Assembly: GCA_903933115.1 (NCBI GenBank) | Contig: CAIZIT010000078.1 | Coordinates: 1 to 64,000, forward strand | Source of the DNA: an uncultured Burkholderiales bacterium | GTDB taxonomy: Bacteria; Pseudomonadota; Gammaproteobacteria; Burkholderiales; Burkholderiaceae_C | Reading direction: 5' to 3' | DNA: 64,000 nt | Part shown: in pieces, positions 3,364 to 21,820 of the stretch | Numbering within the stretch: position 1 is the stretch's first letter | Layout of the letters: each line of letters opens with the position of its first letter | Translations under genes and position numbers: made by a program | Notes under the pieces: model-generated | What the model saw: only the letters and a program-made list of their open reading frames with translations | What the model was told of the DNA's origin: nothing | Databases searched by the model: none

Positions 3364-4425
3364 TTCCTGTGGGTCAGCACTTTGATCGTGTTGAACGTCT
3401 TGAGTGTTCAAAGCGCTTTGGCGCAAAACCAACCCATTGCCACAGAGCACACCTGGGTGGCCAAAGATTTCAAATTCCATACGGGTGAGGTGTTCAAAGA
3501 GCTCCGAATCGGCTACCAAACCCTTGGAGCCCCTGGTGGCGAGCCGGTGCTGATTTTGCATGGCACCGCAGGCAGCTCAAAGACCTTGATGAACCCCAAC
3601 TTTGCTGGCGAGTTGTTCGGCCCCGGACAAGTGCTCGATGCCAACAAGTACTTCATCGTGATCCCTGACAGCATTGGTACAGGACGCTCGAGCAAACCCT
3701 CTGATGGCCTCAAAAGGCAGTTTCCCCGCTACAACTACGATGACATGGTGAGCGCGCAATACCGCTTGGTGAGCGAAGGCCTGGGGCTGTCGCATTTGCG
3801 CATGGTACTGGGCAACTCCATGGGGGGCATGCAGACTTGGCTATGGGGGGAGCGATACCCTGACTTCATGGATCTATTGGTGCCCATGGCTTCGAGCCCG
3901 AGTGCCATGTCCGGAAGAAACTGGATGATGCGAAGGCTCATCATTGATGCCATTCAAAATGATCCCACTTGGAATCAAGGCAACTACACCGAGCAACCCA
4001 AGAGCTTGCAATTCGCCTCGGCCTTCTTCTCCATCGCCACGAGTGGGGGAAGCCAGGCGCTGCAAAGATTGGGGTCTAGCAAGGACAAGGCCGATGCCTT
4101 CGTCAACGCCAAACTCAAAGACAATGCACAGGCCGATGCCAATGACAATTTGTACCAATGGGAGTCCTCTGCAGACTTTGATCCCGAACCCCGTTTGAAA
4201 AATATCAAAGCCCGGATGCTGATCATCAATGCGGCCGATGACGAGAGAAATCCGCCTGAGCTTGGACACATGGAAAGAGCCCTCAAAATCCTTCCCCACG
4301 CACGCCTCTTTTTGATTCCCGCCTCCGATCAAACGGCAGGCCACAGCACCACGGGGTTGGCCAAGTGGTGGAGCGATGAGTTGAGAAAAGAGTTGAGCAC
4401 GACGGCTCAGGCAACACAGCGCTGA
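3322..4425 (+). CDS. Exported alpha/beta hydrolase, MetX-like fold family
   Basis: Predicted periplasmic hydrolase of the homoserine-acetyltransferase-like branch of the alpha/beta hydrolases; substrate unknown. A Lys/Arg-rich n-region, a hydrophobic stretch and an ALA-Q cleavage site form a signal peptide. The nucleophile elbow is GNSMGG, with a likely acid in AADDERNP and a likely histidine in AGHSTTG. The frame is open back to a TTG at 3199, but the signal peptide fits a start at the last repeat copy (ATG 3322 or 3325). No ribosome binding site is evident at any of these. It lacks the details of true MetX and has a signal peptide, so a role in methionine synthesis is unlikely. It lies ahead of a binding-protein gene on the same strand. 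Confidence 0.8.
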   Translation: MMLRIKLLRKLLSKFLWVSTLIVLNVLSVQSALAQNQPIATEHTWVAKDFKFHTGEVFKELRIGYQTLGAPGGEPVLILHGTAGSSKTLMNPNFAGELFGPGQVLDANKYFIVIPDSIGTGRSSKPSDGLKRQFPRYNYDDMVSAQYRLVSEGLGLSHLRMVLGNSMGGMQTWLWGERYPDFMDLLVPMASSPSAMSGRNWMMRRLIIDAIQNDPTWNQGNYTEQPKSLQFASAFFSIATSGGSQALQRLGSSKDKADAFVNAKLKDNAQADANDNLYQWESSADFDPEPRLKNIKARMLIINAADDERNPPELGHMERALKILPHARLFLIPASDQTAGHSTTGLAKWWSDELRKELSTTAQATQR

Positions 4426-4557
4426 ATCCAAAAAACAAACTTTCAGGCTTCCTCTAAGGTGAGCTTTAGGGCAGGTTTTGATGCAAGTTTTAAGGCAAAC
4501 TTTTCACGAGATTTTTTGTCCAGTTTTTAAATCCACTTTTTGATCAACACATTCAGC

Positions 4558-5640
4558 ATGACCCCACCACCTCTGTCTAGGACCTCTTCAGTGTTCAATC
4601 TTTGCCTCGATCTTTCTCTATATTTTTTTCGCAAACTGCAGCCATTGGGCACTTGGCGAGCTTGTTTAGGGTATGCACTGTCTGGGCTCATCGGGGTTCA
4701 ACTGAGCCTTCTTTCATCCGTGTCTTGGGCGCAAAGCGAAGCCAACTGGCCCAACAAACCCCTCAAGATGATTGTTCCCTTTCCTGCGGCAGGTGGAACC
4801 GATGCAGTGGCCAGGGCCTTGGCCAACAAACTGGGACAACAATTGGGTCAAGCCGTGATCGTAGAAAACAAAGCCGGAGCCAATGGTGTGATTGGGGCCG
4901 ATTATGTGGCCCATGCGCCTGCAGATGGTCTCACCATTTTGTTGACCATTGCCTCTCACGCCATTGCACCTGCTATTTATAAAACACTGCCCTACAACAC
5001 CGATCAAGACTTCACACCCGTGAGCTTGGTGGCACTCTACCCCTATCTCTTCACGGTCCCCAGCAGCCTGCCCATCCACACCTTCAAAGACTTCATTGAA
5101 TACGCCAAACACAATCCAGGCAAATTGAGCTACGCCTCCTCAGGCACGGGCAGTGGCCCGCACTTGGGCATGGAGTTGCTCCAACAAGTCACGGGCATCG
5201 AGCTCATCCACGTCCCCTACAAAGGCGCAGCACCTGCCAACAACGACTTGATCAGTGGACAAGTGGAGGCGATGCTCAACAACCTTTTGGCCGGGGGTGC
5301 TTTGATTCGAGCGCAAAAGTTAAAGGTCTTGGCCGTCACCAGCGAGCACCGCTCCAAGGTGCTCCCCGATGTGCCCACCGTCAAAGAGTTGGGCTACCCC
5401 AAATACCAAGTCGATGGTTGGTACGGCGTCTTTTTGCCCGCCAAAACACCTGCTGTGATCGTGAACAAGTTGTCACTCGAAGTGGCCAAGGCCTTAAAGG
5501 ACGCTGAAGTGCTCAACCGGCTCAGCAAAGACGGCGCCATTGCGGTGGGCAGCAGCCCCAAAGAGTTCTCAGATTTTTTCAATCGCGATAAAAAGCAGTG
5601 GTTGGAACTGACTCAAAAAGTAAAAATCACCCTGGATTAA
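4558..5640 (+). CDS. Bug/TctC-family periplasmic substrate-binding protein
   Basis: Periplasmic binding protein of the tripartite tricarboxylate transporter type, which captures carboxylates or similar small acids. After a long N-terminal lead with a signal sequence ending SWAQ, the mature part shows the family marks: IVPFPAAGGTD, VIVENKAGANG, PADGLT, a P-loop-like SYASSGTGSGPH, HVPYKGAAPA, and a late LPDVPTVKELG. Ligand class cannot be read from sequence. A TTG at 4540 would add six residues; I prefer the ATG at 4558. The next gene, a hydrolase, begins 4 nt after the stop, so the two are probably co-transcribed. No TctA/TctB genes are near. Confidence 0.9.
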   Translation: MTPPPLSRTSSVFNLCLDLSLYFFRKLQPLGTWRACLGYALSGLIGVQLSLLSSVSWAQSEANWPNKPLKMIVPFPAAGGTDAVARALANKLGQQLGQAVIVENKAGANGVIGADYVAHAPADGLTILLTIASHAIAPAIYKTLPYNTDQDFTPVSLVALYPYLFTVPSSLPIHTFKDFIEYAKHNPGKLSYASSGTGSGPHLGMELLQQVTGIELIHVPYKGAAPANNDLISGQVEAMLNNLLAGGALIRAQKLKVLAVTSEHRSKVLPDVPTVKELGYPKYQVDGWYGVFLPAKTPAVIVNKLSLEVAKALKDAEVLNRLSKDGAIAVGSSPKEFSDFFNRDKKQWLELTQKVKITLD

Positions 5641-5644
5641 GAAC

Positions 5645-6487
5645 ATGCCAAGATTACAAGTTGCACCCAATATCGATATTTTTTACCGTGAAGATGATTT
5701 CACAGATCCCTGGGTCAAGCGCCCAACTCTTTTGCTCCAACATGGCAATGGTCGCAGTGGAGAATTTTGGTACCGCTGGATCCCCTACCTCAGCAGACAC
5801 TTCAAAATCATTCGAGCCGATATGCGAGGCGTTGGTCAATCTTCCCCCGTGCATGACACCGAGCGAGACATCTCGATCGAGCACTGTGTGGCGGACTTGG
5901 TCCAACTCATTGAACACGTCTCGGACGGCCCGATTTATTATTGTGGCGAATCGATGGGGGGGATTTTGGGACTCGCCTTGGCAAGCGCTCACCCAGAGTG
6001 GGTCAAGGCATTGATTTTGGTGGCGACACCCGTCTACATCAGTGACACCATGAAGCAGCGCTACGCCATGGGTCACGGCTCAAGGCTAGACGCCATGAAA
6101 AAAATGGGCATCAAAAACTGGGTTCGAGAAACAAGCGTTCTCACTCGCTTTGCACCACACAGCGACCCGAAGTTGATTGACTGGTATGTCGATGAGTTTG
6201 CAAAAGGAAAACCCGAGGTCTTGGTGCGTTACTCGGAGCTGGTGAACGCTGCCAATGCCAGCGCTTTCTTGCCCCAAATTCAATGTCCAACTCTTGCGAT
6301 CATGCCAAGCAATGGTCAAATCACTGACGCCGATCAAGAGGCCTTGATTCAAACCCACATCCAAAACGTTCGCATCCAACACATTCCCTCGCCCTATCAC
6401 ATGATCCACTTGACCCATGTTCAAGCGTGTACTGACGAAGTGCTCCATTTTCTAGGCACGATGGAAAACACCTCATTCAAGGGATAG
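5645..6487 (+). CDS. Alpha/beta hydrolase
   Basis: Cytoplasmic alpha/beta hydrolase of 280 residues without a signal peptide. The oxyanion-hole motif QHGNG and the nucleophile elbow GESMGG (Ser near residue 103) are clear; the His is probably in PYHMIHLTH near the C-terminus. It starts 4 nt after the upstream binding-protein gene. Its N-terminal DDFTDPW segment recurs as HDFTDPW in the hydrolase at 12942-13751, which also adjoins a binding-protein gene, so the two are paralogues in parallel contexts. It may hydrolyse an ester, enol-lactone or C-C bond in the compound imported by the neighbour. That link is inference. Confidence 0.87.
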   Translation: MPRLQVAPNIDIFYREDDFTDPWVKRPTLLLQHGNGRSGEFWYRWIPYLSRHFKIIRADMRGVGQSSPVHDTERDISIEHCVADLVQLIEHVSDGPIYYCGESMGGILGLALASAHPEWVKALILVATPVYISDTMKQRYAMGHGSRLDAMKKMGIKNWVRETSVLTRFAPHSDPKLIDWYVDEFAKGKPEVLVRYSELVNAANASAFLPQIQCPTLAIMPSNGQITDADQEALIQTHIQNVRIQHIPSPYHMIHLTHVQACTDEVLHFLGTMENTSFKG

Positions 6488-6537
6488 GAAGAAGCAATGG
6501 GCTTTCAAAGCTTCGCACTCAATTTATGAGCCTTGAG

Positions 6538-6582
6538 TTTTGAATTTTGAATTTTGATTTTTGATTTTTAAGTTTAAAACTT
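6538..6582. repeat. AT-rich heptamer repeat between convergent genes
   Basis: Five consecutive 7-mers starting TTTT (TTTTGAA twice, TTTTGAT twice, TTTTAAG once) occupy 6538-6572. They run into a small inverted repeat, AAGTTT-A-AAACTT (6570-6582). This lies between the ends of a plus-strand and a minus-strand gene and may help termination, though no GC-rich stem is present. Confidence 0.8.
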
Positions 6583-6609
6583 TGAATCTCTCTCACCGCT
6601 GGCCCTTGA

Positions 6610-7635
6610 TCAAACGGTGGCCAATGGCGTGACCGGAGAACCCGCGGCCCCTGGGAGCCGCAAAGGTGGCGCGCTCAATAGGAATCGACTCCGATGGTGT
6701 TCATGCAGCCATGTTGCGAGTTCACTCAAATACCAAAGCTCCCCCAAGTGAACGCCAAGCTTGAACAAACAGTGCTCATGGAGCGGCAGCACCGCACCTT
6801 TGTCTCCGAGACCATGCCTTACACCTAAGGTGGAAGAGGCTTCAATGGCCAAATTGTCGGAAGCGATCGCACTCAAACCCGACTGGGTGATCCAGTTGAG
6901 AAGCCTCTCATCCTCACCATCTAAAACTGCACAAGCGGTTTTGATGGAGGCATCCGGACCCGTTGAAGGGCTCTTCAAAATCAAATCGTCCAGTCCCGTG
7001 TGAAAGCAAACCATATCGCCTTCTTCCACTTGCACACCGTCTTGGTCCATGACAGATAGGAGCATCTCCAAATTCACGTGCACACGCTGTTCACCAAAAT
7101 GGCGAAACAAATCGATCATGACCCCTCGTCCTTGAACACCTTTTTGAGCCATGTTGGCAATGGACAAGGTCCTCGCACCGAGTTCACCTTGTAAGCCCTG
7201 CCCTTGGCTGTCCACAATGTCCCAGCCGTTGTAAAACACTTTTTTGGGCTTGCCCGACCCATCCACATCGAACCAAGACCCCTTGTGAGAAAAGCTGTCC
7301 CACTGCGTGGAGTACTGGCTGTACAAGATCACCGCCTCATCGCTTGAAACATCGGTCAAGCGTTGATCGAGTTCGTTCAAGGCAAAATTGAAAATCTTGT
7401 GCCCTTGGGCATTGGTCACGGGCTTGAAGACCGGTGCACATCGGTGTCCATTCAAGACTTGTCCGCCGGGTTTATCCAGGGGCAAGCTCAAACAAAAAAT
7501 CTCACCCGTTTGCACCTCCTTCATGGCTTGCAGTCTTCTTTGGGGGGTGAGCAAATTCATGCGGCCGAATTGATCGTCTTCACCAAATTCACCCCAATTG
7601 GACCCCTCGGGTCTCACTGTCCATCGCTTTGTCAT
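6610..7635 (-). CDS. Cyclase-family (kynurenine-formamidase-like) hydrolase
   Basis: Member of the metal-dependent Cyclase family (PF04199), which includes arylformamidases and isatin hydrolases that open amide or lactam bonds. At 341 residues it belongs to the longer bacterial subgroup. The family metal-binding signature appears as STQWDSFSH, followed by a YNGW segment; EEGDMVCFHTG and IASDNLAIE are the usual later motifs. The start at 7635 is preceded by AGGAGG 10 nt upstream; the frame is open to 7692 but without support there. It stands alone, divergent from the binding-protein gene at 7963 and convergent with the hydrolase at 5645. The substrate is probably an N-acyl or cyclic amide, but this is not determinable. 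Confidence 0.85.
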   Translation of the reverse strand: MTKRWTVRPEGSNWGEFGEDDQFGRMNLLTPQRRLQAMKEVQTGEIFCLSLPLDKPGGQVLNGHRCAPVFKPVTNAQGHKIFNFALNELDQRLTDVSSDEAVILYSQYSTQWDSFSHKGSWFDVDGSGKPKKVFYNGWDIVDSQGQGLQGELGARTLSIANMAQKGVQGRGVMIDLFRHFGEQRVHVNLEMLLSVMDQDGVQVEEGDMVCFHTGLDDLILKSPSTGPDASIKTACAVLDGEDERLLNWITQSGLSAIASDNLAIEASSTLGVRHGLGDKGAVLPLHEHCLFKLGVHLGELWYLSELATWLHEHHRSRFLLSAPPLRLPGAAGSPVTPLATV

Positions 7636-11972: not shown

Positions 11973-12941
11973 TCAATCGGCCCGGATCTCGCTTTCACGA
12001 ACCACACGGCGCCACTTGATCAACTCGGCCTTGAAGAAGGTGTTGAACTCGGCTTGCGAGGTGACCACAGGCTCCAATCCATTGCTTTTGATCAACCGAT
12101 CCACATCCACCGATTGGCTCAATCGGTTGATCTCTTGATGCAGCATTTGAGAGGTGGATGCGGGCACGTCTTTGTGCACAAAAAAGCCATACCAACCACT
12201 GGCCTCGTAAGAGGGCAAAGACTCGGCAATGGCAGGCACATCGGGTAAAGCATTGATACGCTTGGATGCAGTCACCCCAAGTGCCACCAAGCGTTGCGCT
12301 TTGATATACGGCAAAGCGGAGACCACGCTGTCAAACATCAAATTGACTTGGCCCGACAACAAATCGGAGGTGGCGGGGGCTGCCCCCTTATAAGGAATGT
12401 GCGTCATCTTGGCCCCCGATAAGGCGTTGAAGAGCTCGCCAGCCAAATGAGGCACTCCACCCACGCTCGCGGAGGCAAAATTCACTTCACCAGGATGCCT
12501 CTTGGCGTAAGCGATCAAGTCGGATAAATTTTTTAAACCCAACTGAGGATGAGCCACCAAAACAAAGGGCGCTTGGGCAATCCACGCAAGAGGCAACAAA
12601 TCGAGCCCCGTGTCGTAGGGTAACTTTTGCAACAAACTCGGAATGATGGCAATGGTGACGGGTGCCAAAAGCAAATCATGTCCATCCCCCGGGGCTTTGA
12701 GCATCTGATCGGCCGCCATGGAGCCACTTGCGCCAGGTCTGTTTTCAACGATCACGGGTTGAGAAAGATTTTTGGACATTCTCAAACCATAAATTCTCGC
12801 CAACACATCCACAGGTCCGCCGGGCGGATAACCCACCCAAATTTTCAAAGGCTTATGGGGGAAACTGACTTGGGCATTCAAAGCGGTCAAGCCCAAGCAA
12901 GCCCAAAGCCATAAAAAAATCAAACGCAACAACAGCTTCAC
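11973..12941 (-). CDS. Bug/TctC-family periplasmic substrate-binding protein
   Basis: Third TctC-type binding protein, 322 residues, starting with a GTG at 12941 and a compact signal peptide (Lys-Leu-rich start, hydrophobic core, cleavage near LNAQVSF). Motifs: IWVGYPPGGPVD, VIVENRPGASG, APGDGHDLL, NFASASVGGVPH, HIPYKGAAPA and LPDVPAIAESL. Its GTG lies immediately after the TAA stop of the upstream hydrolase gene with no spacer, so translation is probably coupled. It is the last gene of a six-gene minus-strand operon that starts at 16082. The imported ligand is unknown. Confidence 0.9.
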   Translation of the reverse strand: MKLLLRLIFLWLWACLGLTALNAQVSFPHKPLKIWVGYPPGGPVDVLARIYGLRMSKNLSQPVIVENRPGASGSMAADQMLKAPGDGHDLLLAPVTIAIIPSLLQKLPYDTGLDLLPLAWIAQAPFVLVAHPQLGLKNLSDLIAYAKRHPGEVNFASASVGGVPHLAGELFNALSGAKMTHIPYKGAAPATSDLLSGQVNLMFDSVVSALPYIKAQRLVALGVTASKRINALPDVPAIAESLPSYEASGWYGFFVHKDVPASTSQMLHQEINRLSQSVDVDRLIKSNGLEPVVTSQAEFNTFFKAELIKWRRVVRESEIRAD

Positions 12942-13751
12942 TTAAACTTTCGAAGCATGTTTATCCATGAAGTCCAAACAAATGCTTGTGCACAGATCTG
13001 GATACGCCCCTGCAGCATGCCAAGCATCGCCTTCGATGATGGACAAGGTGGAGTTGTTCATGGTGGCATGCCATGCTTTGACACTCTCTACACTCCTCAA
13101 ACCACTGCCGGTGGTGGTGATGACCAAAGACGGAGGGGTGATGCGTTGAATACTTTCTTTGATGTCTAGACTGGGTATCCAAGACAAATACCCCAGCAGT
13201 GAGGCTTTTGATGTTTGCCCTTGAACACATTGGACCCACCAATCGATTTCTTGCTGACTCACTTTTGAACCCAGTCGACCGCGCATGGTCTTTGCCGCCC
13301 AAGCTTGAACGCCCAAAGCTTCAATCTCATCAATCCAAGTTTGTACCCCTTGAGCGGCAACAACGGGCGGGGTGACGGCCATCACCGTTTGGATTGCCTT
13401 TGGAAAACGACTTGCGTACTCCAAAGCAAACGTTCCACCGCTTTTTGCACCCAAAAGATGAATGGGCTCAGAAGTGAGGGATGAGATGAAGGCATTCAAA
13501 TCGTCCATCACGACTTGCATGGACCAGGGGAACGATTGGGCCATAGGTGTGGAGCGACCAAAGCCACGCAGATCCAAACTCACAACTTTAAAACGTTGGG
13601 CAAGCCTAGGAATCCATGCTCGCCAAGCCAGCCGACTCTCTGCAAACCCGTGAACCAATACCATCACAGGTGCATGGATCCAGGGGTCTGTGAAATCATG
13701 GGTCTCGTGGTGCAGCTCGCAACCATCAGCGAGTCGGAAAATGGCGTCCAA
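12942..13751 (-). CDS. Alpha/beta hydrolase
   Basis: Cytoplasmic 269-residue alpha/beta hydrolase. LVHGFAESRLAW carries the oxyanion motif, the nucleophile elbow is GAKSGG, and the likely histidine is in EGDAWHAAG. It shares the HDFTDPW N-terminal segment with the hydrolase at 5645-6487. The only start before the fold is TTG 13751, preceded by GAG at suitable distance; no in-frame ATG precedes the core. It is fifth in a six-gene operon, with a 14-nt gap to the DUF6152 gene and none to the binding-protein gene. The nucleophile elbow GxKSGG is slightly unusual. Substrate unknown. Confidence 0.83.
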   Translation of the reverse strand: MDAIFRLADGCELHHETHDFTDPWIHAPVMVLVHGFAESRLAWRAWIPRLAQRFKVVSLDLRGFGRSTPMAQSFPWSMQVVMDDLNAFISSLTSEPIHLLGAKSGGTFALEYASRFPKAIQTVMAVTPPVVAAQGVQTWIDEIEALGVQAWAAKTMRGRLGSKVSQQEIDWWVQCVQGQTSKASLLGYLSWIPSLDIKESIQRITPPSLVITTTGSGLRSVESVKAWHATMNNSTLSIIEGDAWHAAGAYPDLCTSICLDFMDKHASKV

Positions 13752-13765
13752 TGGTAGAACTCGAT

Positions 13766-14200
13766 TTATTTGGCGCCTTGGCCTTCTTCCAAATTGGCGG
13801 CCTCTTGTGCTCGAATGTCGGTGGTCAAAACTCTACCGCTCTCAAGTGTCATTTTTTTGAGTGCTCCACCCTTCTTGCCGTTGCGAAGAGGACTGAAAGC
13901 CACCACAACTTTGTCTCCCACTTTGGCTGAATTGCGCGTCCAATTGCTCACACGTGTTAAGTTCCCTGGGCTCGTCATCTCCATCAACCAAACGGTGGGC
14001 TCCTCATCCTTGATGGCACCAGAAATGAAAATCGCAACGTGTGGATTGGTCCACTGAACCTCTTTGATCACACCCGTGATGGTCACACTTTGAGCATGAT
14101 CGAACATGGTGGTGGAATGGTGCGCAAACGTGTTTTGCAAGGGCGCCATGCCACCAAGCAAAGCCAAAGAAAGGGATATGTTTTGGGTGATGTTTTTCAT
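13766..14200 (-). CDS. DUF6152 family exported protein
   Basis: Small periplasmic protein of 144 residues, function unknown. A signal peptide (MKNITQN, then a Leu-rich core) ends near NTFAHHST; the mature N-terminus begins with the paired histidines AHHS characteristic of this family. The VTITGVIKEVQWTNPH core and the WTRNSAKVGDKVVVAFSP segment also fit DUF6152, which is small, probably all-beta, and found in proteobacterial catabolic clusters. AAGGA precedes the ATG by about 8 nt. It follows the exported 278-residue protein by 17 nt, and the pair probably works together in the periplasm. The His pair might bind metal; that is conjecture. Confidence 0.8.
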   Translation of the reverse strand: MKNITQNISLSLALLGGMAPLQNTFAHHSTTMFDHAQSVTITGVIKEVQWTNPHVAIFISGAIKDEEPTVWLMEMTSPGNLTRVSNWTRNSAKVGDKVVVAFSPLRNGKKGGALKKMTLESGRVLTTDIRAQEAANLEEGQGAK

Positions 14201-14217
14201 CTGGGATCCTTTAAGGT

Positions 14218-15054
14218 TTACTGAGGAGGAATTCGGTTGCCACCAATATCCATGGGGATAGGTTCGTAGATGTCAAATCCTTTGGCGTCCTTGGCGGGCT
14301 TGAAACTGCCCTCTAAACAAACACCCTCAATGATGTCAAACTTTTGAGCACGCTGCCTGAAAGAAATGCGAGTGGTCTTCCAAGGTTTGGTCAAAAGGTG
14401 AGGCGCTGTGATCAACAACTCATCGTGCAACTCATCTTTGCCCACCAAACGAATTCTCTCTGTGATGTGAATATCTCCGTTATGGGGAACACCTGCGGCC
14501 TCGCTGATGGCAAAAATCGCTTGAGGCAAAATGCCCACTGTATCGACCACCAAGGTGTCACCTTCCCAGTGACCAATGGAGTGGCCGTGGAAGGTGGGAT
14601 CTGGATCCTCTGGGTGCTTGCGTCCATCGGTGTAGATGCGACGCAATCGATTTCCATCCGATTCACCCAGCATGGTCACTCGTCCTGGGGTGAACAACAC
14701 TTCCATAGAGTTGTGTGAAATCAACATCCATGCGGGCATGCCCTCGGGTAAACAATTGACAAAAAGTGGCGTGGGTCGGCCTGCTTTTTCCTCCGCCAAC
14801 TGAAATTTAATGATCTCAGCAACCTCTGGCTTCCAAGGGGGCATGTTGGTCTTGATTTGCTGATCTTGATCTGTGATTTTGGGGTTCCATGTTCCGCTCC
14901 AATCGGGCAACTTGGCCAAATCTTGCCAATCCTTGGCAGAGGGTGTCACGTTGTAGCCCGGTTTACTGCCGACTTGCGAGTGCGTGAGTGTAGAGACACC
15001 CAAGATCAGTATGCTCAAAAAAGTCACACCAAGCAAATGTTGAACATTCTTCAT
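14218..15054 (-). CDS. Exported protein of unknown function with GHWEGDTLVVDT motif
   Basis: I do not recognise a named family. The 278-residue protein has a signal peptide (MKNVQHLL start, cleavage near LTHSQV) and no membrane anchor. Visible landmarks are a Trp-rich LPDWSGTWNP start of the mature domain, a NCLPEGMPAWM segment, and the block DGRKHPEDPDPTFHGHSIG followed by HWEGDTLVVDT. This block recurs in many hypothetical proteins of Proteobacteria that sit near DUF6152 genes, by my recollection. It is probably beta-rich. AAAGGG lies upstream of the ATG. It is third in the six-gene operon, 17 nt after a DUF6644-like gene and 17 nt before the DUF6152 gene. Function unknown. Confidence 0.8.
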   Translation of the reverse strand: MKNVQHLLGVTFLSILILGVSTLTHSQVGSKPGYNVTPSAKDWQDLAKLPDWSGTWNPKITDQDQQIKTNMPPWKPEVAEIIKFQLAEEKAGRPTPLFVNCLPEGMPAWMLISHNSMEVLFTPGRVTMLGESDGNRLRRIYTDGRKHPEDPDPTFHGHSIGHWEGDTLVVDTVGILPQAIFAISEAAGVPHNGDIHITERIRLVGKDELHDELLITAPHLLTKPWKTTRISFRQRAQKFDIIEGVCLEGSFKPAKDAKGFDIYEPIPMDIGGNRIPPQ

Positions 15055-15071
15055 TCATGAACCCTTTATTT

Positions 15072-15593
15072 TCAATTGGCCAAAACAGGTTCAATGGTGA
15101 ACCCAATCCAGCGACCACACAACACCACACCGATCCATAAACTCAAAGAGATCAGCCCAGCCCATCTTGCAGAATTTGGAATTTGAGACTGCTGGGACCA
15201 ACGGTGATGGTCTTGACTGATGAGCCGCTGAAAAATCAACATGTTCAAACCGGCCAACAAAAGCAATGCGATTTTGAATTGAAAGAATGAGTTTGCTGCG
15301 TAATTGACCGCACTGGAGATGAACAACAAAGCACCACTGATCACTGCAAAGAAAAATGCAACCCAGGTGAAAGGGAGCAACTCTGAGGAAACCTTGGTGA
15401 ACTGGCTTCGCTTAAAGGTCACACCCAACAAATGCAAGTCCACCATCGCAATTGAGCCAAAAACCACTGCATCAGCCAAAACATGCAAGGACTCAATACT
15501 GGGAAATAAATAATCGTTTTCTCGAATGGTCACCCCGAGATGGGAGTCGTTGAGAAATTGAAACAAGCCACTCAATTCATTCATAGTTTTCAC
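15072..15593 (-). CDS. DUF6644-like integral membrane protein, copy 2
   Basis: A 173-residue inner-membrane protein with about four hydrophobic segments. It is homologous to the next gene upstream: IESLHVLADAVVFG matches LQSFHIVALSALFI there, FFQFKIALLLL matches AFQLKMILLVL, and the C-terminal WIGVVLCGRWIGF matches WISIIFAGRWIAY. I assign it tentatively to DUF6644. The conserved membrane histidine in the S-[LF]-H motif, with a second His in VDLHLLG, could ligate haem or metal; this is speculation. GTG 15593 directly follows the stop of copy 1; an ATG three codons later is an alternative. Second gene of the six-gene operon. Confidence 0.75.
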   Translation of the reverse strand: MKTMNELSGLFQFLNDSHLGVTIRENDYLFPSIESLHVLADAVVFGSIAMVDLHLLGVTFKRSQFTKVSSELLPFTWVAFFFAVISGALLFISSAVNYAANSFFQFKIALLLLAGLNMLIFQRLISQDHHRWSQQSQIPNSARWAGLISLSLWIGVVLCGRWIGFTIEPVLAN

Positions 15594-16082
15594 TCAAAGA
15601 TAAGCAATCCAACGACCCGCAAAAATAATCGAGATCCACATCAAGATGGAAAGGGCTGCAAGCAGCTTATTGGCTACACTCAAATGGTGGCTTGAAGCTG
15701 GAAAATCTGTTTGGGTCGAAACACAACTCAACAAGTGCCTGTACAAAAGCAAGACCAACACCAACAAAATCATCTTCAACTGAAAAGCATCATTGGCCAA
15801 AGATCTGGCGGGCTCTGCGATGATCAAAAAAATACCGGTGACCAACAACACGGGCAAACTGATCAGGGCGTTGTACTTAAAGCCACTCAAGTAAGCGCCA
15901 TCATGAAAGCGATTGCTCAGTACGCGAATGTTGAAAACAAGCATCGCAATAAAAAGTGCGGATAGCGCCACGATGTGAAAGCTTTGCAAGAGTGCGATCA
16001 AATCGGAGCTGTTTTGAATCGTTTGACTCAACTCTGTGTCTTGCAAGGATTCACAAAATGCGAGGAGGGCTGGAGGTCTCAC
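15594..16082 (-). CDS. DUF6644-like integral membrane protein, copy 1
   Basis: A 162-residue membrane protein with about four predicted membrane spans, paralogous to the adjacent downstream gene. Shared features are the SFHIVALSALFI span with its histidine, a central spanning pair (LISLPVLLVTGIFLII), the AFQLKMILLV span and the terminal GRWIAYL. It starts with a GTG at 16082 and is the first gene of the operon running to 11973; the next gene begins at the base after its stop. Two coupled paralogues suggest a heterodimer in the membrane. DUF6644 assignment is from memory of the motif pattern. Confidence 0.75.
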   Translation of the reverse strand: MRPPALLAFCESLQDTELSQTIQNSSDLIALLQSFHIVALSALFIAMLVFNIRVLSNRFHDGAYLSGFKYNALISLPVLLVTGIFLIIAEPARSLANDAFQLKMILLVLVLLLYRHLLSCVSTQTDFPASSHHLSVANKLLAALSILMWISIIFAGRWIAYL

Positions 16083-16363: not shown

Positions 16364-18010
16364 ATGAACTCCTCCAGCGCCAACTCCACGCCACTCATCA
16401 AAGCCCTCGATGTATTGAAACTCTACAAGCCTCACGACTTCACCCTCTTTGGGGCTTTGTGCAGCCGACTGGAAAAGGATCCTCAAAAGGTTTTTTGCTT
16501 GCATGCAGGTCAAACCTACACCTGGCAGCAGTTTCATGACGACGTGAACAAGACGGCCATCTTGTTTCACGCCAAAGGCATCAAAAAGGGGGATCGCTTT
16601 GGGGTCATGGCAAGAAACCAGTATGCACACATTGTGATGCTTTTTGCTCTGTCCAAACTCTCGGCCATCATGGTGCCCATCAATCCGGATTTTTCAGTGG
16701 CTGAGGCCAGTTATGTGATTGGGCATGCTGACCTCTTTGGATTGGCAGTGGATGAGCATGGCGTAGATCATGCTTTACTCGCGCTTGAAGAAAAAAACCT
16801 AAAGCCCTGGTTGCTGTCTTTGATTCAAAACGACAAGGTGCCACTTGTAGAGATGGCGAAGTGGACCGATTTGTGCAAAGACCTCGACCCTCAATCGGCA
16901 CCCACAGGACAAGTCTCGGCACAAGACACTTGCATCATCATCTACACCTCTGGGACAACGGGTTTTCCCAAAGGGGTCATGCACAGTCAGCGCAGCTTCA
17001 TCCTGGCGGGCGAAGCCTTTGTAGAACGTGTCTATCTCCAACCCAACGACCGGGTCATGATTGTGTTGCCCATGTTCCACATGAACGCTTTGTTTTACTC
17101 TGCCTCAGGTGTGATGGCCAGTGGAAGCACCATGATCATTCAGTCGCGTTTTTCTGCATCCGAGTTTTGGAATCAAGCCGCAGATCTCAAAGCCACCGTT
17201 GTGAACTTGATTGAAGCGGCATCGAACATCTTGAAGGCGCGGTCCAGAAGTGAATTCAGACCCGACCATCAACTGCGCTGTGCTTATGGCGTTCGTCAAA
17301 GTGCACAAGCTGCATTTCGAGACGAATTCAAGGTACCCTACTTCGTGAGCGGTTACGGCATGACTGAAATCCCAGGCGTGACTTGCAGCCCCTACGGCGG
17401 GCTGCAAAAACCAGGCACGATGGGGCCCGAAGGCAAACACCCTGATCCCGCCCAAGCTTGGGCAAAATGCAAGGTGGTGGACGATCAGGGCCAAGCACTG
17501 GGACCAGGGGAGGTGGGGGAGTTGATCGTTCAAACCCCCATCGTGACACAAGGCTATTTCAGAGATGAAGTGCAAACCGCTCAAGCCTTCAGGGACGGTT
17601 GGTTCCTCACCGGCGACTTGGTCACCAAAGATACCGATGGCTACTACACCTTTGTCTCGAGAAAGAAGGACATCATCAGGAAACGAGGAGAGAACATTGC
17701 GGGTGCTGAGCTCGATCGGGTGGTCTCTGAGCACCCCAGTGTTGCTGAGGTGGCGACCATTGCTGTTGCAGCTGAGCTCGGGGAGGATGAAATTTTAGTG
17801 GCTGTGGTCCTCAAAAAGGACCACACAATGAGCCACCAAGAGGTCGCTGATTGGTGCGCCCAAAGACTCTCCGCCATCAAAGTGCCTCGCTTCGTGATTT
17901 TCTTGGAGGCTTTGCCCTACACCCCGACCAATAAAATTGCAAAAGCTCAACTGCGAGCAGATCCAACGATCCGAGAAAGAGCCGTTGACTTGCAGCCCTC
18001 TAAAAAATAA
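16364..18010 (+). CDS. Acyl-CoA ligase (class I adenylate-forming enzyme)
   Basis: Cytoplasmic enzyme that activates a carboxylic acid to its CoA thioester via an acyl-adenylate. The P-loop IIYTSGTTGFPKG is near residue 193, the acceptor motif YGMTEIPG near 332, the hinge region GWFLTGDL with SRKKDIIRKRGENI near 410-445, and the catalytic Lys is in TPTNKIAKAQLR near the C-terminus. At 548 residues it has normal length. It is monocistronic, divergent from the DUF6644 operon. No clear ribosome binding site is seen before the ATG. Related enzymes act on carnitine, fatty or aromatic acids (CaiC, FadD-like); the acid cannot be told. Confidence 0.9.
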   Translation: MNSSSANSTPLIKALDVLKLYKPHDFTLFGALCSRLEKDPQKVFCLHAGQTYTWQQFHDDVNKTAILFHAKGIKKGDRFGVMARNQYAHIVMLFALSKLSAIMVPINPDFSVAEASYVIGHADLFGLAVDEHGVDHALLALEEKNLKPWLLSLIQNDKVPLVEMAKWTDLCKDLDPQSAPTGQVSAQDTCIIIYTSGTTGFPKGVMHSQRSFILAGEAFVERVYLQPNDRVMIVLPMFHMNALFYSASGVMASGSTMIIQSRFSASEFWNQAADLKATVVNLIEAASNILKARSRSEFRPDHQLRCAYGVRQSAQAAFRDEFKVPYFVSGYGMTEIPGVTCSPYGGLQKPGTMGPEGKHPDPAQAWAKCKVVDDQGQALGPGEVGELIVQTPIVTQGYFRDEVQTAQAFRDGWFLTGDLVTKDTDGYYTFVSRKKDIIRKRGENIAGAELDRVVSEHPSVAEVATIAVAAELGEDEILVAVVLKKDHTMSHQEVADWCAQRLSAIKVPRFVIFLEALPYTPTNKIAKAQLRADPTIRERAVDLQPSKK

Positions 18011-20158: not shown

Positions 20159-21820
20159 TTAAGCGCTCTTTTGCAAATCCCACAATTCAATGGCGTGATC
20201 TCGTAATTTATTCTTCTGGACCTTGGAGCTTCCTGTCATGCCAATGAGCTCAAATGAATCCACAAAGGCCAAGTATTTAGGAACCTTGAAATTCGCACAT
20301 CTGTCTTTGCACCATGCGATCAAATCTTCAGCGCTCACCGCATGCGCATCGTTGGGGATCACAAATGCAGCACACACCTCACCCAGGCGTTGATCGGGCA
20401 CACCCACCACCTGAGATTGTTGAACACCGGGATGTGCATGCAAGACCTCCTCCACATCGGATGGCGCCACATTCTCGCCCCCTACTCTGAAGATGTCTTT
20501 GAGGCGGCCCACCATTCGAACTCGACCCTCTGGGTCATATTCACCCAAGTCCCCCGACTTTAACCATCCATCTTGGGTGAATGCTTTGGCTGTTTCTTGG
20601 GGCATGTTGTAGTAGCCCTTCATGACGTTCCAGCCCTTGACCTGAATTTCACCCGTGTCTGGATACAAAACAGGTTGATCACTGAGCGCATTGGCCAAGC
20701 GAACGTCGACACCAGGCAAAGGACTGGCAAAGCCTGATTTTCTCAACTCAAAGGGCTCTTCACAATCGGAGAAGAGTACATTGGGAGAGGCCTCAGATTG
20801 ACCGTATGCGTTGCAAACGGTTGTGAGCCCCATCTCGTCGTGAATTTTTTGCATGACCCCCGGATCCACTGCGGCCCACCCCCCCGTCAAGTACAGGCGA
20901 CGGACATCGAAATCTTCATCGCCCAGCAAGGAGAGAAAGATGGTGTCGTTGCCCGAAATGAGTGTGCATTTTTCTTCGAAGAGCACCCTCAAATTTTCTT
21001 TGACATCAAATTTAGGCAAGGTCAGCAAGCAGCATCCCGAATTGAGACTCACCAAAATGGACAATGTACTGCCAGAGACGTGAAAGTAAGGACGGATGCT
21101 GAAATACCGATCTGCGCTGCTCACCCGCATTCGCTGGGCCACCTCGCGTGCATTCAAGAGCATGTTGGTGTGTGTCAGCATCACCCCTTTGGGAAATGAG
21201 GTGGTCCCAGACGTGAATTGAATCAAGAGCACATCACTGGGCAAGACGCTTTCAGTTTGAAGCCTCAACAAAGACTCGTCCACCGAATCGCCCATGGATA
21301 AAAAATCTTCCCACCCCAATGAGCCCTTCAGTGTGCTTTTTTCTGAAGTCGAAATACAATGCCTCAAGTGGGGCAATTTCAAACCCGGCAGGCAAGTCGC
21401 TACAGCAGGCTCGATGTCTTGAATCATGCCGGCGAAATCGATGTTCAAAAATTGTTCGCTCATGAAGAGCACTTTGACATCGGACTGCTTCAAACAATAC
21501 TCAAGCTCCCCTTTTTTGAATCGGGTATTGATGGGGACTGTCACCGCACCAATGAGCGCACAAGCGTAAAAAATCTCAATCCACTGCGCACAATTGCCCA
21601 GTAAAACACCGACATGGTCTGCCTTTTGCACATCCAGAGCCAACAACGATTTGGCAATGGCGTGACTGCGCGCTGAGGTCTCTCGCCACGTTCTTCTGGC
21701 ATCGGGCCCAACGTAGGACTCGTGGTCGGGGTATTGACTTACTGCTTGAGCAAGGACTTGAGAGAGCACGAGACGGGTCTTGGGCTCCTCATCCAAAGGT
21801 TGAAAGACGGACTGGTTCAT
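20159..21820 (-). CDS. Acyl-CoA ligase (class I adenylate-forming enzyme)
   Basis: Forms an acyl-CoA from an organic acid with ATP. The P-loop reads FTSGTTSFPKGVMLTH, the adenylate motif NAYGQSEASPN, the hinge GWLKSGDLGEYDPEGR with RLKDIFRVGGENVAP, and the C-terminal catalytic Lys is in TGSSKVQKNKL. At 553 residues it is full length. It overlaps the upstream crotonase gene by 4 nt, so the two are translationally coupled. With two crotonases, a CoA transferase and a thiolase-like lyase in the same operon it most likely catalyses the entry step of a CoA-dependent degradation pathway. Substrate not determinable. Confidence 0.92.
   Translation of the reverse strand: MNQSVFQPLDEEPKTRLVLSQVLAQAVSQYPDHESYVGPDARRTWRETSARSHAIAKSLLALDVQKADHVGVLLGNCAQWIEIFYACALIGAVTVPINTRFKKGELEYCLKQSDVKVLFMSEQFLNIDFAGMIQDIEPAVATCLPGLKLPHLRHCISTSEKSTLKGSLGWEDFLSMGDSVDESLLRLQTESVLPSDVLLIQFTSGTTSFPKGVMLTHTNMLLNAREVAQRMRVSSADRYFSIRPYFHVSGSTLSILVSLNSGCCLLTLPKFDVKENLRVLFEEKCTLISGNDTIFLSLLGDEDFDVRRLYLTGGWAAVDPGVMQKIHDEMGLTTVCNAYGQSEASPNVLFSDCEEPFELRKSGFASPLPGVDVRLANALSDQPVLYPDTGEIQVKGWNVMKGYYNMPQETAKAFTQDGWLKSGDLGEYDPEGRVRMVGRLKDIFRVGGENVAPSDVEEVLHAHPGVQQSQVVGVPDQRLGEVCAAFVIPNDAHAVSAEDLIAWCKDRCANFKVPKYLAFVDSFELIGMTGSSKVQKNKLRDHAIELWDLQKSA

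Follow-up and report, generated by a model that had tools for sequence, protein, structure and literature searches.

A conserved gene unit joining DUF6644, GHW, and DUF6152 proteins in Proteobacteria: a putative periplasm-to-membrane metal module

Results

A six-gene operon contains a conserved four-gene unit

The stretch of DNA analyzed here (the window) comprises 64,000 nucleotides (nt) of contig CAIZIT010000078.1 from an uncultured Burkholderiales bacterium (assembly GCA_903933115.1), and the system in question is a set of genes for two DUF6644 membrane proteins and two exported proteins, DUF6152 and a nameless protein that we refer to as GHW. On the minus strand, six open reading frames (ORFs) occupy 16082 to 11973 in tandem; the gaps between them are 0, 17, 17, 14, and 0 nt. 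These ORF coordinates agree with the packing described in the original prediction, which had been made from the letters alone; start codons were assigned mechanically (GTG, GTG, ATG, ATG, TTG, and GTG), and the gaps are uncertain by a few codons.

The first two genes encode small membrane proteins. DUF6644a (15594 to 16082) carries the family-invariant His and Lys and falls into the type IIa clade of our tree (Pfam score, 32.8 bits; cutoff, 27), and DUF6644b (15072 to 15593), with the invariant residues H37 and K107 as candidate ligands, belongs to the type IIb clade (39.8 bits; cutoff, 27). The third gene (14218 to 15054) encodes GHW, a 278-residue exported protein with the motif GHWEGDTLVVDT at residues 161 to 172, invariant cysteines at C101 and C246, and a predicted barrel resembling calycins or fatty-acid-binding proteins (FABP); a Pfam scan at an E value of ≤1 assigns it no family. 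The fourth (13766 to 14200) encodes DUF6152 (93.4 bits; cutoff, 27), an exported protein in which a signal peptide is followed by HH and which is predicted to adopt an oligonucleotide/oligosaccharide-binding (OB) fold. In the translation, the codons of its predicted mature His1 and His2 lie at 14117 to 14122, and a third His, mature residue 28, lies within an NPH sequence. The last two genes encode an alpha/beta hydrolase (12942 to 13751; Abhydrolase_1, 77.9 bits), with no obvious signal peptide by eye, and a TctC-type periplasmic binding protein (11973 to 12941; 199.4 bits), one of six TctC proteins in the window. Pfam thus bore out the family calls made beforehand for both DUF6644 proteins, DUF6152, the hydrolase, and TctC. 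A single transcript for all six genes is plausible; promoter-like sites (3, versus 3.2 expected) and terminator-like sites (5, versus 6.0 expected) occur at the level of shuffled sequence. At an E value of ≤0.001, GHW and DUF6152 each occur once and DUF6644 twice in the genome (2.82 Mb in 119 contigs).

To place the operon in a wider context, we searched a phylum sample of 398 genomes, the window's own included, at the same threshold. GHW was found in 11 genomes, DUF6644 in 29 (21 above the Pfam cutoff), and DUF6152 in 42. Every one of the 29 DUF6644 genomes also has DUF6152, and all 11 GHW genomes have both DUF6644 and DUF6152, a co-occurrence far from chance by a hypergeometric test that ignores kinship. 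The proteins are also encoded close together: DUF6644 lies within 4 kb of DUF6152 in 27 of the 29 genomes, the exceptions being G385 (about 31 kb) and G402 (on another contig). Thirteen DUF6152 genomes gave no DUF6644 match; among the five of these that were fetched, DUF6644 was found beside DUF6152 with a profile built here in four (L076 to L079) and not in the fifth (L075). The co-occurrence in other genomes on which the original prediction had staked its case is therefore found, and its description of the module as undescribed also stands, since our literature searches returned no paper naming DUF6644 or DUF6152 and none on the GHW motif; a search directed at the gene neighborhoods likewise yielded nothing on these families.

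The loci fall into two classes. Class I is a two-gene unit of DUF6152 and DUF6644; both families are present in 23 of 24 fetched loci (L058 lacks DUF6644), and in these 23 the genes share a strand with their domains 7 to 156 nt apart, DUF6152 leading in 22 and the order being reversed in one (L079). Class II consists of two DUF6644 genes, mostly of two clades, together with GHW and DUF6152. When named genomes were scanned with type b DUF6644, 210 relatives turned up; among the best 80, at least two DUF6644 genes occur in 77, DUF6152 in 52, GHW in 55, and all three in 49; some loci end at contig edges, and these counts are minima. The module is present in alpha-, beta-, and gammaproteobacterial records, and in a 150-genome sample of the window genome's own family GHW occurs once, in the window itself.

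Comparison of 126 related loci returned no instance of the full six-gene unit. In L092, from an uncultured betaproteobacterial metagenome-assembled genome, the order DUF6644a, DUF6644b, GHW, DUF6152 is the same as in the window (GHW, 65% identical; DUF6152, 63% identical). There, DUF6152 is followed by an AAA ATPase gene, no hydrolase gene adjoins it, and the closest TctC gene lies 1.9 kb upstream on the opposite strand. Relatives of the window hydrolase and TctC were sought by phmmer (E value of ≤1e-8) in 96 class II loci; the hydrolase has a relative in one locus, 5.6 kb away, and TctC in three, none of them within 1 kb. We conclude from these comparisons that the conserved unit is the four genes DUF6644a, DUF6644b, GHW, and DUF6152, and that the hydrolase and TctC look like local additions, part of the local catabolic island described below. 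A six-gene unit was accordingly rejected: of the six genes originally grouped as one module, four recur together and two do not.

Natural fusions join the exported domains to DUF6644

In one genome (G516; L063, 7466 to 9178), a single 570-residue frame contains DUF6152 (about residues 1 to 123), GHW (134 to 300), and DUF6644 (about 416 to 570), and it begins with a signal-like stretch followed by AHH. With profiles built without the fused proteins, the full-sequence E values are 1e-14 for DUF6152, 3e-14 for GHW, and 2e-20 for DUF6644; by Pfam, the DUF6152 part scores 62.9 bits, above the cutoff, and the DUF6644 part scores 19.1 bits, below it. A second genome with the same genus label (G431; L062, 8172 to 9320) has a 382-residue frame consisting of DUF6152 and GHW, after which come two DUF6644 genes. 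Both fusions lie within one genus and represent one lineage. They are the strongest sign that DUF6152, GHW, and DUF6644 may act as one complex. Separately, the GHW match in L130 lies within a very long open frame (4198 to 7452), perhaps a further fusion.

The fusion also bears on topology. Because the fused exported domains precede the first helix, the N terminus of DUF6644 would be periplasmic, and so would H37 and K107, which lie at the outer ends of helices 1 and 3 (helix ends read by eye from the sequence).

DUF6152 begins with a conserved His pair

In a first set of 52 DUF6152 proteins, invariance is confined to four columns, H, H, P, and H. The HH pair follows a signal-peptidase-like site in 52 of 52, preceded by Ala in 51 and by Ser in one. 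The PH pair is likewise present in all 52, with its His at mature position 27 (15 proteins), 28 (26 proteins), or 29 (11 proteins). A second set of 63 proteins, from loci selected by DUF6644, gave the same picture: HH is present in 63 of 63 (preceding Ala in 62), and the third His is at mature position 28 or 29 in all 63, in one of them as NH rather than PH. Across the 115 proteins, the third His lies 26 to 28 residues beyond His1; the sets overlap slightly (L139 matches L064), with 111 of the 115 distinct over the first 60 mature residues. As a control, among 3,173 signal-like sites in the remaining ORFs at these loci, only 3 are followed by HH, in a crude test that used six-frame ORFs. In the window protein, NTFA precedes HHSTTMFD, and the predicted mature start is His27 of the precursor (cleavage site by eye). 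The HH start had been remarked upon in the original prediction; it is more telling than was claimed there, as no residue separates the pair from the likely signal-peptidase site.

A copper histidine brace is defined in the available text of PMC10952591 as an N-terminal His plus a further His. By its residues, the His-His start of DUF6152 together with the internal His is the sequence pattern of such a brace, in which this conserved internal His (mature position 27 to 29) would be the second ligand.

A model of the mature chain (mean predicted local distance difference test [pLDDT] score, 88.0) points to an OB fold. The best structural match by VIA was PriB (Z score, 8.5; 80 residues; 2.3 Å), and CusF (Protein Data Bank [PDB] code 2vb2) gave a Z score of 7.3 (70 residues, 2.5 Å, 23% identity), tied with many other OB folds. 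Foldseek returned no match to the model below an E value of 0.001, a DUF6152 profile search of PDB sequences gave nothing below an E value of 0.9, and the Pfam scan at an E value of ≤1 gave no CopC match. A literature search for "histidine brace" and "OB-fold" together found no paper. CusF and SilF, periplasmic chaperones of copper or silver, have OB folds similar in size to the DUF6152 model, and the DUF6152 profile matches E. coli CusF at 23.6%. However, the stretch W-x-x-M-x-M occurs in only 1 of 58 DUF6152 proteins. This stretch, the CusF ligand site, is present in the E. coli CusF sequence. Membership in the CusF family was rejected on this basis: the predicted fold may be similar, but DUF6152 as a family lacks these ligands.

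DUF6644 is distantly related to HemJ and CopD

Across 214 distinct DUF6644 sequences, H37, G87, and K107 are invariant (214 of 214), and R161 is present in 212. The window's DUF6644b has His54 where 207 of the 214 relatives have Arg. The Pfam scan at an E value of ≤1 matched neither of the window's DUF6644 proteins to CopD (PF05425) or UPF0093. By profile comparison, DUF6644 matched HemJ (25 sequences) at 87.6% (reversed profile, 0.2%) and a mixed CopD/HemJ set at 82.3% (reversed profile, 1.8%), and it matched seven unrelated membrane families, three of them represented by single sequences, at ≤0.8%. Aligned with H37 and K107 are a fixed His and a fixed Lys in both HemJ and CopD; 12 of 12 CopD sequences, including E. 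coli YebZ, have this pair. These comparisons make DUF6644 a distant relative of both families.

Membership in CopD itself was rejected. Our first CopD set was partly HemJ, as the Pfam models cross-hit, and when it was split, strict CopD gave 21.3% and HemJ gave 87.6%. DUF2214 was rejected as the nearest relative because its 66.7%, obtained with five sequences only, is below the value for HemJ. The genome has its own HemJ (G000:C5:112077-112499), which the Pfam CopD model also matches, so that Pfam counts of CopD can include HemJ.

In the available text of PMC13344008, a His of the CopD domain, perhaps the one aligned here, is required for growth of Bacillus subtilis under copper limitation in the case of YcnJ and for copper uptake in the case of E. 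coli YebZ.

GHW may be a calycin-like ligand barrel

Among 42 GHW sequences, C101, C246, G54, W56, and G157 are present in all 42, and no His is conserved at 70%. In a model of the window protein (pLDDT score, 84.8), residues 46 to 236 match fatty-acid- and retinol-binding barrels with a Foldseek probability of 1.00 but an E value of about 4e-3. The best VIA match had a Z score of 8.5 (116 residues, 3.0 Å), and a Z score near 8 may reflect only a common arrangement. We regard a calycin-like ligand barrel as a lead that these matches suggest; unlike the fatty-acid- and retinol-binding proteins, the GHW model has added helices, C-terminal strands, and the two invariant cysteines. A search for solved relatives with the single sequence gave a best E value of 0.68; that match, to a nitrite reductase, was rejected as being at chance level.

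The neighbors of the module differ between lineages

In the window, the operon lies within a set of genes for coenzyme A (CoA)-linked catabolism (about 3.2 to 29 kb) flanked by a Glu/Gln-tRNA synthetase gene and NADH dehydrogenase genes. This island (3199 to 29042) includes two adjacent MmgE/PrpD paralogues, an acyl-CoA ligase (16364 to 18010), a thiolase with a ChsH2-type OB protein, two enoyl-CoA hydratases, a CoA transferase, a nitronate monooxygenase, and the six TctC proteins; a putative second acyl-CoA ligase (20159 to 21820) was recognized by eye, outside the Pfam scan. No TctA or TctB membrane gene is present among the 30 scanned ORFs, which include the neighbors on both sides and to which this search was confined.

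We surveyed neighbors by phmmer in the 96 class II loci and in 30 other loci. A ZnuA-type ATP-binding cassette (ABC) importer occurs in 11 class II loci, always within 1 kb of the module, and DUF4198 occurs in 11, at 4.4 to 4.7 kb. Abhydrolase_10 occurs in 12 class II loci, inside the module in 11, and the three starts that were read (L061, L083, and L117) have a signal-like stretch by eye. The suggestion that the operon ends in a cytoplasmic hydrolysis step consequently fails as a property of the module, given these starts and the local character of the window hydrolase. Pyrroloquinoline quinone (PQQ) dehydrogenase was found in 16 class II loci (13 within 1 kb), carboxylesterase in 14, cytochrome c in 8 (6 within 1 kb), and aldehyde dehydrogenase in 18, versus 4 of the 30 other loci. 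TonB receptors, which are common in Sphingomonadales, were found in 26 class II loci (20 within 1 kb) with one query and in 8 with a second, and a TonB receptor was rejected as a defining partner. In the 30 other loci there was no importer, DUF4198, Abhydrolase_10, carboxylesterase, cytochrome c, or match to the first TonB query; PQQ dehydrogenase and the second TonB query each matched once.

Individual loci illustrate these settings. In L083, L117, and L061, the module lies beside the ZnuA-type importer and DUF4198, with a PepSY-TM protein added in L117, and the two DUF4198 starts that were read (L061 and L117) have a His after a signal-like site. PQQ dehydrogenases and a carboxylesterase surround the module in L066, L064, and L068; L066 has three GHW genes in a row. 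Because the importer and DUF4198 neighbors and the PQQ dehydrogenase neighbors differ between loci, one branch pairs the module with metal uptake and another with periplasmic alcohol oxidation.

Discussion

The preceding analyses are consistent with a core that handles a metal, copper being the likeliest, between periplasm and membrane and that is an analogue of CopC-CopD and YcnI-YcnJ assembled from other protein families. We put the probability of this reading at about 48%. In such a module, DUF6152 would be exported, and the amine and imidazole of His1 plus the His of NPH would form a histidine brace around Cu(II). DUF6152 would then dock on the DUF6644 pair, whose His and Lys would lie near the periplasmic face, and would pass copper to, or exchange electrons with, DUF6644 at H37/K107, where a b-type heme is possible. 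The GHW barrel may bind a hydrophobic ligand and thereby link the module to the pathway that it serves. We infer the metal, any heme, the docking, and the direction of transfer from the features described above. A heme- or metal-linked role had been guessed at in the original prediction; the invariant His and Lys of DUF6644, its relation to HemJ and CopD, and the His pair of DUF6152 favor that guess, while the several conserved membrane histidines that it invoked come down to one invariant His per paralogue.

Known systems offer partial precedents. In CopC-CopD, YobA-YebZ, and YcnI-YcnJ, as here, an exported protein with an N-terminal His accompanies a membrane protein in which one His and one Lys are fixed; in E. 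coli, yobA lies next to yebZ, and according to the available text of PMC12154828, genes of DUF1775 and CopC, whose products have N-terminal His sites, often adjoin CopD genes. By analogy, this precedent and the 11 loci with a ZnuA-type importer and DUF4198 argue for a metal module. Unlike CopC-CopD, however, DUF6152 has a predicted OB fold and no CopC match, DUF6644 has no Pfam CopD match, and class II adds a paralogue and GHW. The "signal-strapping" metalloproteins DUF4198, DUF6702, Ang-1, and Ang-2 (PMC12537917), four N-terminal-His classes found in that study by the same logic as was applied to DUF6152 here, also have a His after the signal peptide and membrane or metal-gene partners. DUF6152 differs from them in its predicted OB fold and second invariant, internal His, and it does not appear in the main text of that study as far as this was available. 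HemJ (UPF0093), a protoporphyrinogen oxidase of the b-heme type, resembles DUF6644 in its profile and in the aligned His and Lys, but its Pfam model misses DUF6644, the genome has a separate HemJ, and DUF6644 has exported partners.

Several observations weigh against a copper module. DUF6644 is nearer to HemJ than to strict CopD, against which (11 sequences) it scored the 21.3% given above (46.3% for type IIa alone and 0.2% for type IIb); class I DUF6644 matches HemJ at only 12.2%, and the HemJ comparison was chosen along the way, after those with CopD and DUF2214. The DUF6152 profile spans the HH region and so favors HH-bearing matches, the DUF6152 model is less sure at residues 1 to 10 (block mean pLDDT score, 79) than in the core of the fold, and DUF6152 is also found with no DUF6644 nearby (L058, L074, and L075). 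The 30 scanned ORFs of the window include no metal gene, and the surroundings are those of CoA-linked catabolism. The importer and DUF4198 loci (nine from Pseudomonas, one from Variovorax, and one other) have similar spacings and represent few independent events; these neighbors may indicate zinc, manganese, or nickel as much as copper, and other loci have PQQ dehydrogenases and esterases instead.

The chief rival, which we consider unlikely, is a periplasmic oxidoreductase of copper and heme, in which the copper of DUF6152 would be catalytic or would carry electrons, the DUF6644 pair would hold a His/Lys-ligated b heme, like HemJ, and link to quinone or cytochrome c, and GHW would bind the hydrophobic substrate; the enzyme would oxidize a compound of the local catabolic pathway. 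The CoA-linked island in the window favors such a role, as do the resemblance of GHW to retinol- and fatty-acid-binding barrels and, within 1 kb of the module at class II loci, PQQ dehydrogenases (13 of 96), carboxylesterases (14), and a cytochrome c relative (6). The closer relationship of DUF6644 to HemJ than to strict CopD points the same way; a 2018 title by Skotnicova reportedly calls HemJ a b-type heme protein. Yet the heme in DUF6644 is a prediction, and the minimal two-gene unit has no GHW. A 2020 review states, in the part available, that it is not known whether HemJ has specific cofactors, and in the available sections of PMC12537917, the N-terminal-His proteins Ang-1 and Ang-2 had no substantial activity, with weak oxidase activity in the presence of copper.

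Two further explanations leave out copper. It is quite unlikely, in our estimate, that the same architecture carries nickel, zinc, manganese, or cobalt instead: the 11 of 96 class II loci with a ZnuA-type importer and DUF4198 beside the module would fit such a cargo, as would the finding that DUF4198, a nickel-binding N-terminal-His protein, was stabilized most by nickel (PMC12537917, available sections), but in the literature available in part, the copper histidine brace of CopC and lytic polysaccharide monooxygenases consists of His1 and a second His, and the 11 loci come mostly from one lineage. We give very little credence to a metal-free operon for substrate uptake and hydrolysis, in which TctC and the calycin-like protein would bind an ester or amide, the membrane proteins would pass it, the hydrolase would cleave it, and the HH of DUF6152 would be structural. 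Although the packing with the hydrolase and TctC, the catabolic surroundings, and the TonB receptors within 1 kb at 20 of 96 class II loci would suit such an operon, the hydrolase and TctC are not conserved partners, and a structural role leaves unexplained the three fixed histidines, the HH at the cleavage site, and the His and Lys shared with HemJ and CopD.

A bolder version of the copper-and-heme alternative, which strikes us as improbable, would make the module a new class of periplasmic redox machine. The OB fold of DUF6152 would carry brace copper, GHW would be a calycin barrel that binds the substrate, and DUF6644 would supply a membrane pair of the HemJ/CopD type with His/Lys-ligated b heme, sometimes all in one chain; the machine would either oxidize hydrophobic compounds or link copper with the quinone pool.

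The reading of the core as a metal module would turn two domains of unknown function and a nameless family into one testable system. If it is true, DUF6152 would add to the histidine-brace proteins a family with an N-terminal His-His, an internal His, and a predicted OB fold. Moreover, because DUF6644 has the invariant membrane His and Lys of HemJ and CopD, whose mechanisms are unsettled in the literature available in part, a soluble partner of DUF6644 may offer a handle on both of these families.

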